Assembly (NCBI GenBank): GCA_905182615.1
Contig: CAJJCG010000058.1
Coordinates: 1 to 32,352 of the forward strand
From: Alphaproteobacteria bacterium UBA2964
GTDB lineage: Bacteria; Pseudomonadota; Alphaproteobacteria; MPNO01; UBA2964
Direction: 5' to 3'
DNA: 32,352 nt
A program made the position numbers and the translations under genes. Under the pieces are notes generated by a model. The model saw nothing but the letters and a program-made list of their open reading frames with translations. It searched no databases and was not told the DNA's origin. Of the stretch, positions 19,049 to 20,359 are shown piece after piece. Within the stretch, counting starts at the first letter, position 1. Each line of letters opens with the position of its first letter.

Positions 19049-19054
19049 AGGAGG
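19049..19054 (+). promoter_or_regulatory. Strong Shine-Dalgarno AGGAGG deciding the lipoprotein start
   Basis: A perfect AGGAGG lies 7 nt before the ATG at 19062. It sets the start and predicts high translation, as expected for an abundant Lpp-type lipoprotein. Confidence 0.85.
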
Positions 19055-19061
19055 ATTTAAA

Positions 19062-19346
19062 ATGAGATTAGGAAAAACGCTTATTATTGCTGCGCTGCCG
19101 CTCGCTCTAGCTGTAGGCTGCGAAACGTCCAACGATGGTAAAGCAGGCATGAAAAATGAAGCTGCCATGCAGGCTCAAAGCGATGCGAAGCGCGCTGTTA
19201 CTGCTGCTAATGCCGCTGTTGCTGCTGCTAATGCCGCTGCAGCAAGCGCTGCTGCTGCTGCACGTGCTGCTGAAGCTGCTGCTGCCGAAGCGAAAGCTGC
19301 CGGTGACAAAGCTGACCGCGTCTTTCGCAAAGGTATGCGCAAGTAA
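19062..19346 (+). CDS. Alanine-rich Lpp/OprI-like outer-membrane lipoprotein
   Basis: The ATG at 19062 is selected because a strong AGGAGG (19049-19054) precedes it by 7 nt. An upstream in-frame TTG at 19014 has no such site. The product is 94 residues: a signal peptide with lipobox LAVGC (Cys20), a short Asn/Lys linker, then an Ala zipper of about 50 residues (AANAAVAAANAAAASAAAA, ARAAEAAAAEAKAAGDKAD) ending RVFRKGMRK. The Ala-zipper core and C-terminal Lys recall OprI and Lpp, whose terminal Lys is joined to peptidoglycan by L,D-transpeptidases. Such an enzyme is encoded 32 bp away, converging. The assignment rests on composition and layout because low-complexity sequence gives little homology signal. 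Confidence 0.8.
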   Translation: MRLGKTLIIAALPLALAVGCETSNDGKAGMKNEAAMQAQSDAKRAVTAANAAVAAANAAAASAAAAARAAEAAAAEAKAAGDKADRVFRKGMRK

Positions 19347-19378
19347 TCAGCCCATCCAAATTTAACAAGGAGTTAGTG

Positions 19379-20359
19379 TCAGGTTTTTGACGCTGGTTCC
19401 TTGTTGCTATCCAGGGTTGGCTTTAGCACGGGAACCGGTAGTCCGCTGCGGTCTCGAGCTATTTTTTTTACTTTTTTCCAGTCTATTAACTTGGCTTTGT
19501 CGCCAGCGGCCTGGACCACACGGTAAACCATTTCCGGGATTAGCGTCGGCGTTGGTTTCGCGCCTTTCTCTATTTCAACATTTTGATCAAGGTTGGGATG
19601 GACCTCCATTAACAGCTCTCCGTTGACCCATCCCGTTTTCATTTCCTGGCTAACGACTGTAACAGGGGCTCCCACGGGTATCTGGGGGAACAGACTTTTG
19701 ATGTCTTCTGGATACATACGGATACATCCATGGCTTACGCGGCGGCCGACACCCCAAGGGTTATTTGTCCCGTGGATAAGATAGGCTGCCCAACCCAGAT
19801 AGAGCGCATGTTGCCCAAGCGGGTTGTCGGGGCCTGGTTTCACGATTGCGGGTAATTCAGGATCCTCTTTGCGTATGGATTTAGGCACATACCAGGAAGG
19901 ATTTCGTTTTTTGCGAACAATCTTTGTCGCACCACGCGGTGTATCCCAAGCTTCTTGGCCGGTCCCAATTGGATAGCTTTGAGTAGAGCCATCATCCGCG
20001 GGGAAGTAGTACAATCTTTGATCTACGAGATTTAGCAATAAGCCTTGTCTGGGCCCGCTTGGTAGAAGGTGTCCCGTTGGCAAGGTGATTTTGGTGCCGT
20101 CACCGGGCAGCCACGGGTCGACACCAGGATTGGCAGCGAGCATTTCGACATAGCCGAGTTTGTTGGTACGTGCGATGTCCAGCAACGTGTCTTCTTTTCG
20201 GGATAGGGTATGCCGAACGGCGCCAACTAAATCAGATTTTCTGCTTTTGGCCGGGGCCGGATTGGCAGAAAGAACGGAACCGGGGAAGACGAGTGAGCCC
20301 ATCAGCCCGGCTCCAATACCGATGCACATTTCACGGCGACTGGGATTTTCTCTGGTCAT
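19379..20359 (-). CDS. LysM-containing L,D-transpeptidase (ErfK/YbiS-like, YkuD domain)
   Basis: A 326-residue periplasmic enzyme. The N-terminus carries a twin-arginine-like signal (SRREMCIGIGAGLMG, ending near VLSA). A LysM-like module spans about 47-95 (DTLLDIARTNKLGYVEMLAANPGVDPWLPGDG). The YkuD catalytic domain follows, with HGTN (His196) and SHGCIRM holding the nucleophile Cys212. The segment order and ANPGVDPWLPGDG closely follow E. coli ErfK/YbiS/YcfS, the enzymes that link Lpp to peptidoglycan. About 90 residues after the active site are variable. It converges on the Lpp-like gene with 32 bp between the stops. Alternative roles are 3-3 crosslinking or anchoring other outer-membrane proteins, as known in other alphaproteobacteria. 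Confidence 0.93.
   Translation of the reverse strand: MTRENPSRREMCIGIGAGLMGSLVFPGSVLSANPAPAKSRKSDLVGAVRHTLSRKEDTLLDIARTNKLGYVEMLAANPGVDPWLPGDGTKITLPTGHLLPSGPRQGLLLNLVDQRLYYFPADDGSTQSYPIGTGQEAWDTPRGATKIVRKKRNPSWYVPKSIRKEDPELPAIVKPGPDNPLGQHALYLGWAAYLIHGTNNPWGVGRRVSHGCIRMYPEDIKSLFPQIPVGAPVTVVSQEMKTGWVNGELLMEVHPNLDQNVEIEKGAKPTPTLIPEMVYRVVQAAGDKAKLIDWKKVKKIARDRSGLPVPVLKPTLDSNKEPASKT

Follow-up and report, generated by a model that had tools for sequence, protein, structure and literature searches.

A lipoprotein and neighbouring L,D-transpeptidase as a probable Lpp/OprI-type outer membrane tether in Alphaproteobacteria

We describe two adjacent genes that very probably encode, to judge from characterized counterparts in Escherichia coli and Pseudomonas, a covalent tether between the outer membrane and the peptidoglycan together with its dedicated attaching enzyme; such a pair would be the Lpp/OprI system in its alphaproteobacterial form. 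The genes lie in what we call the window, the entire analysed stretch of 32,352 nucleotides from Alphaproteobacteria bacterium UBA2964. Their pairing is not a product of chance and spans the alpha- and gammaproteobacteria. What is observed directly is which genes are present, their motifs, the association between them and the conservation of the lipoprotein at its two ends. Published work portrays Lpp as limited to a gammaproteobacterial subclade and beta-barrel anchoring as the mode of alphaproteobacteria, which, according to reviews, lack an anchor of the Lpp kind. In the open-licence literature, we found no prior description of an Lpp/OprI-type lipoprotein in alphaproteobacteria.

Results

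The gene pair and its junction

The features of the locus are as follows.

19049..19054, plus strand: Shine-Dalgarno sequence AGGAGG, 7 nt 5' of the ATG (direct sequence reading)
19062..19346, plus strand: Lpp/OprI-type alanine-zipper lipoprotein gene, 94 amino acids and stop; PF11839 match, the only match in the window's genome
19110..19121, plus strand: lipobox AVGC, residues 17-20 (Cys20), with Glu at +2 (sequence reading); Cys20 invariant in alignment A3
19161..19319, plus strand: alanine-zipper heptads (heptad analysis; Pfam stretch 34-94)
19314..19343, plus strand: C-terminal decapeptide with Lys94, the proposed attachment point; Lys94 invariant in A3
19363..19406, no strand assigned: inverted repeat at the convergent junction, 20 bp with a 4-nt loop; fold z -4.5; it occurs once in the genome and shows paired base changes in relatives of the same genus
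19379..20359, minus strand: YkuD L,D-transpeptidase gene, the proposed attaching enzyme, 326 amino acids and stop (PF03734; AF2 model)
19655..20041, minus strand: YkuD catalytic domain with SHGCIR (Cys212), motif S-x-G-C-h-R (Pfam); Cys212 and Arg214 invariant in alignments A1 and A5
20069..20236, minus strand: N-terminal beta-alpha-alpha-beta unit of the transpeptidase (AF2 secondary structure)
20324..20341, minus strand: twin-arginine-like start SRREMC of the transpeptidase (sequence reading)

The coding part of the lipoprotein gene (19062-19343, plus strand) starts with the ATG at 19062 and is closed by the stop codon at 19344-19346; its product begins with MRLGKTLIIAALPLALAVGC and ends in DRVFRKGMRK. 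The coding part of the transpeptidase gene runs from 20359 to 19382 on the minus strand, with the stop at 19379-19381, and its product contains ANPGVDPWLPGDG and SHGCIRM. The lipobox, alanine zipper, C-terminal Arg-Lys and convergent YkuD neighbour that an earlier sequence-only reading had recognized were all confirmed, and the coordinates, strands and motifs proved exact.

The lipoprotein scores 25.6 bits against the Pfam Alanine_zipper model PF11839, above the cut-off of 23.1. Its match to the NCBIfam Lpp/OprI model NF040598 covers positions 5-90 of 90 and, at 39.9 bits, falls just under the cut-off of 43, so that the protein is not assignable by name to that family. The leucine-zipper model PF04728 gave no match in Pfam up to E=1; the protein would thus be Lpp-like in action, yet not classed as PF04728. 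A search of PDB sequences with the lipoprotein as query returned no match. Among 14 control genomes, NF040598 gave a signal in E. coli and Synechococcus (one of two above the cut-off) and none in Caulobacter. Alanine fills two heptad positions (7/7 and 8/8) and is found once in eight at a third, and the 3.5-residue periodicity of the polar residues was matched by none of 2000 shuffles; the zipper has a periodic order that goes beyond mere alanine-richness. In alignment A3, which has 27 rows and includes E. coli Lpp, two positions alone are invariant, the Cys of the lipobox and the Lys at the C-terminus. The alanine codons are GCT in 24 of 36 cases, compared to 76 of 337 in ten other genes of the window, a bias that would fit high expression.

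The +2 residue varies within the order to which the window's genome belongs. Defluviicoccus is a member of this order, and in lipoproteins of the Defluviicoccus type (L059, L062, G013, G016, G024) the lipid Cys is followed by Asp as the +2 residue. Asp at this position is the inner-membrane retention residue of E. coli, and the sorting rule may differ in these members. In many gammaproteobacterial partners (e.g. L099, L106, L113, L130), the C-terminal Lys is preceded at a distance of about 20 residues by a Cys-Cys pair, which is absent from the window's order.

The transpeptidase matches PF03734 (YkuD) in Pfam with 94.8 bits against a cut-off of 23.4. Its AF2 model has a pLDDT of 90 and aligns best, over nearly its full length, with the Klebsiella structure 4lzh (TM 0.74/0.86). 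The N-terminal unit looks LysM-like in the model, by shape only, and Pfam gave no LysM match in this protein. The highest NCBIfam score was obtained with the LdtE equivalog NF047955; identification as LdtE was rejected because the score of 183.4 bits is far below the equivalog cut-off of 480. An RR motif at the protein start is present in 22 of 28 rows (the window included; G013 doubtful) as opposed to 3 of 42 named gammaproteobacterial enzymes, and Tat export of an L,D-transpeptidase is a possible reading of this start.

The two stop codons are 32 nt apart. The inverted repeat at the junction is likely a terminator shared by both genes; no long U-run follows it on the plus side. Its identity as a REP-like repeat was rejected given the single genomic copy.

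Conservation of the pair in the order

Our sample of the window's order consisted of 27 genomes, including the window's own, which is 73% complete. The transpeptidase was found in 24 of these, and the 3' flank was readable in 20. The lipoprotein gene is convergent with the transpeptidase gene in all 20, and the terminal Lys, the loss of which would have spoken against the earlier proposal, is likewise kept in 20/20 assessable members, with RK at the end of 19 proteins and KK at the end of one; the C-terminus in G023 is NLRK. Four transpeptidase-bearing genomes (G015, G018, G020, G022) were not assessable, with a contig end at most 110 nt away, and no transpeptidase was found in G003, G004 and G006, which are 67-86% complete.

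Association of the two genes across the class

We then turn to the class as a whole, represented by an even draw of 289 genomes, each at least 80% complete except the window's own, in which the transpeptidase (E<=1e-40) and the lipoprotein (E<=1e-3) were searched for independently. The transpeptidase was detected in 37 and a lipoprotein match in 43 of the 289 genomes. Both searches were positive in 30, and the matches were adjacent in 28, with 23 convergent and five tandem pairs (G152, G161, G182, G221, G246), so that the genomic association suggested as a check on the original proposal is borne out, and adjacency outlasts gene rearrangement. In the tandem pairs of these five genomes and of loci L077, L080 and L091, the lipoprotein gene is upstream of the transpeptidase gene on the same strand. 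There are two exceptions: in G118, the lipoprotein, ending in RK, is unlinked and encoded on another contig; in G098, the lipoprotein search match falls inside a long open reading frame. Weak matches of the lipoprotein search within long open reading frames come from Ala-rich stretches.

Reading of the flanks added four convergent partners, namely, variant zippers with weak HMM scores in G098 and G297 and mini-lipoproteins in G157 and G250. With search and flank reading combined, a neighbouring lipoprotein is encoded in 32 of the 37 transpeptidase genomes (27 convergent, 5 tandem), and 31 of the 32 proteins end in Lys, the exception being G196 with the end QRKPAR. The lipoprotein frame of G182 contains a stop. 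Five genomes have no neighbouring lipoprotein: in G033 the transpeptidase lies at a contig edge, in G041 no lipoprotein was found, in G118 the two genes are unlinked, and the only enzyme of G183 and of G273 is a remote one. Some genomes encode two such transpeptidases (G040, L050 and L104; G314, L213 and L214), only one of which is seen beside a lipoprotein.

Thirteen class genomes gave a lipoprotein match and no transpeptidase. In the seven of these that were examined (G030, G066, G096, G165, G186, G218, G303), none of the listed open reading frames with a lipobox had Lys as its last residue. The zipper homologues of G030 (L240) and G096 (L239), two genomes in which the search did not find the transpeptidase, have QRG and VPR, respectively, as their last residues, as if the Lys had been lost together with the enzyme.

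How much weight a terminal Lys can bear depends on its background. In our control, 6 of 67 open reading frames ended in Lys, five of which were judged true partners; because many of the control frames may be spurious, the safer background is the published one, according to which Lys is the last residue of more than 20% of the periplasmic proteins and lipoproteins of E. coli (PMC12274547). The terminal Lys alone is therefore a weak indicator, and the argument lies in its constancy combined with the gene pairing. In Dickeya, a single C-terminal Lys is enough for attachment (PMC12274547).

Partners in named genomes and mini-lipoproteins

A scan of named genomes covered the best 80 loci of 579 confirmed relatives. 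Among these best 80 of 579 loci, 51 have a lipoprotein partner found by HMM, and all 51 partners end in Lys (44 convergent zippers, 5 convergent mini-lipoproteins and 2 tandem zippers). Flank reading within the same 80 adds L071, L077, L079, L080, L116 and L118, all Lys-ended. Five of the 80 loci are at a contig edge and 18 others are partnerless, including L126, for which a raw HMM match failed the lipobox filter. Among the partner-bearing organisms in this set are Tistrella (T. mobilis at L083), Geminicoccaceae, Kiloniellaceae, Rhodospirillales and a large number of gammaproteobacteria.

The mini-lipoproteins are devoid of a zipper and are the convergent partners in L084, L085, L087, L108, L110, G157 (L153) and G250 (L164), which are mostly Micavibrio-like. 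They have 38-61 mature residues, a lipobox, an APYxEERT-like stretch and, in 7/7 cases, the end (D/E)xVFx5K; the composition of the body reads as non-helical. None of the five that were compared with NCBIfam scored above a cut-off. A slightly wider form of the same tail is present in 15 of the 16 typed tails of the window's order and in 29 of the 44 named zippers from the best 80 of 579 loci. We read these tails as a sign that one enzyme lineage may be tied to the tail of the lipoprotein rather than to its body.

The YkuD repertoire and the candidate attacher

Genomes of the order encode one to three YkuD proteins each. Apart from the transpeptidase studied here, the order sample contains 38, of which 36 were read for the motif (loci L219 and L220 are outside this count); none has the transpeptidase-type Arg, with 35 showing TxGC[IV]A and one TQGCIG. 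In G001, a 99% complete genome in one contig, the two YkuD proteins are this transpeptidase and one with TQGCIA. The second YkuD protein of the window's genome (G000:C78) also carries TQGCIA, and its only NCBIfam match is to the DpaA model NF040599, at 45 bits against a cut-off of 365. The motif SxGChA has been proposed by Winkle et al. as specific to lipoprotein-releasing enzymes (reported in PMC10434034). As the other YkuD proteins read in the order lack the Arg, the neighbour of the lipoprotein is the only candidate attacher among the YkuD enzymes.

Could this enzyme instead be mainly a 3-3 cross-linker like E. coli LdtE, standing beside the lipoprotein gene by inherited gene order, with the lipoprotein attached by another enzyme or by nothing? 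Its best NCBIfam score is that of LdtE (183 bits), E. coli lpp adjoins ldtE, and PMC8263019 presents LdtE as a 3-3 cross-linker, not an attacher, so that a location next to an lpp-like gene leaves the reaction unfixed. Lineage does not separate the functions either. In our tree, E. coli LdtA, LdtB, LdtC and LdtE form one clade (SH-aLRT 100; a quick method with one support measure and no inferred root), which makes tree position unusable as a criterion for attachers and cross-linkers, and anchoring and cross-linking enzymes are reported to form no separate lineages (PMC10434034). Given that report and the LdtE score, the Lpp-attaching kind is not assignable by sequence. However, the transpeptidase-type Arg occurs in none of the 36 of 38 other YkuD proteins read, so that the conserved Lys would have no explanation if anchoring had been lost. 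Moreover, adjacency survives the change of gene order in the tandem forms, and the Pseudomonas enzyme of the same lineage is the anchoring one (PMC10434034). We accordingly regard a mainly cross-linking role as improbable.

Discussion

The closest known counterpart of the pair is found in Pseudomonas aeruginosa, where the OprI and LdtPae2 genes are presumably neighbours. The resemblance extends to the Arg-Lys end of the lipoprotein and to anchoring by a single enzyme of the ErfK/YbiS/YcfS/YnhG lineage, LdtPae2 alone being responsible for OprI (PMC10434034). A further YkuD protein, the third in P. aeruginosa, has SxGChA and is the likely releaser (PMC10434034); the TQGCIA protein of the window's genome is a possible one. 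Unlike the organism studied here, P. aeruginosa is a gammaproteobacterium, its anchoring has been shown by mass spectrometry whereas ours is deduced, and it has a separate cross-linker, LdtPae1, whereas reading of the YkuD proteins from the window's order revealed no equivalent.

Lpp of E. coli likewise combines a lipobox, a helical zipper and a C-terminal Arg-Lys, and lpp and ldtE converge as adjacent genes with 63 nt between them, the same layout as that of the window pair. The mature protein has 58 residues in E. coli compared to 75 in the window, where the PF04728 match is absent, and E. coli attaches Lpp by paralogues encoded elsewhere (LdtA/LdtB/LdtC). The convergent arrangement in E. 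coli and across the gamma- and alphaproteobacteria bears on the earlier suggestion of a dedicated substrate-enzyme pair forming a tether distinct to this lineage: the dedicated pair holds up, and the lineage-specific tether does not.

By analogy with E. coli and Pseudomonas, the pair would work as follows. After export and acylation at Cys20, the lipoprotein would be directed to the outer membrane, where it would form an oligomeric coiled coil of the alanine-zipper type, a rod about 75 residues long. In the periplasm, the YkuD transpeptidase would react with a tetrapeptide stem of the peptidoglycan to give an acyl-enzyme, from which the tripeptide would pass to the amino group on the side chain of Lys94 at the C-terminus. 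Cleavage of this bond may be the work of the second, DpaA-like YkuD protein, whose gene lies elsewhere in the genome.

Other tethers place this proposal in context. In the alphaproteobacteria Brucella and Agrobacterium, an L,D-transpeptidase also joins an outer-membrane protein to the peptidoglycan (PMC10787603), but there a beta-barrel receives the link at its N-terminus, whereas in the window the acceptor, as proposed here, would be the C-terminal Lys of a lipoprotein. Such anchoring of beta-barrels, reported for alphaproteobacteria (PMC8263019, PMC10787603), could in principle be the task of the window's enzyme as well, the lipoprotein then being a free outer-membrane rod or surface lipoprotein; the constant C-terminal Lys and the gene pairing would remain unexplained, and we consider this very unlikely. 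Coxiella LimB is an outer-membrane lipoprotein attached through Lys, as proposed here; it differs in that the residue is Lys21, the enzyme is unknown and the protein is called Coxiella-specific (PMC12729407). Finally, the chance placement of an Ala-rich low-complexity frame next to a housekeeping transpeptidase, a notion that the weak matches of Ala-rich stretches within long frames might encourage, has a negligible probability in the face of the heptad order, the adjacency in 28 of the 30 genomes where independent genome-wide searches both matched, and the conserved ends.

The range assigned to Lpp depends on the model used. When counted by PF04728, Lpp was found only in some gammaproteobacteria (PMC8263019), and its restricted distribution is repeated in PMC10260701, PMC10628300 and PMC12274547. 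Among the 27 members of A3, PF11839 matches 24 (E<=0.01) and PF04728 matches two, which means that the PF04728 census misses most of them.

With regard to ancestry, 74 mostly alphaproteobacterial rows group together in the tree (support 94), four alphaproteobacterial rows fall outside, and several supports are modest. Vertical descent of the pair, with late copying of the enzyme in E. coli, would be expected to give such a topology. Transfer is a possible alternative, given the lack of an inferred root, the modest supports and the four outlying rows. We see about even chances for a joint reading in which the pair would predate the split between alpha- and gammaproteobacteria, such that Lpp-type tethering would be no gammaproteobacterial invention and would continue to serve many alphaproteobacteria that do not belong to the well-studied orders. 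Under the same reading, E. coli LdtA, LdtB, LdtC and LdtE would be late copies of one original partner, strict constraint would act only on the ends of the tether, and Micavibrio-like bacteria would have exchanged the zipper body for a zipperless linker of 38-61 residues, keeping the lipobox and (D/E)-x-V-F-x5-K.

If the pair works as proposed, a broad covalent tether has been overlooked in alphaproteobacteria, at least in part through a survey with the leucine-zipper model. One candidate attacher, one lipoprotein and one possible releaser would also make a simpler system than the six enzymes of E. coli in which to address questions of periplasm width and tether number.
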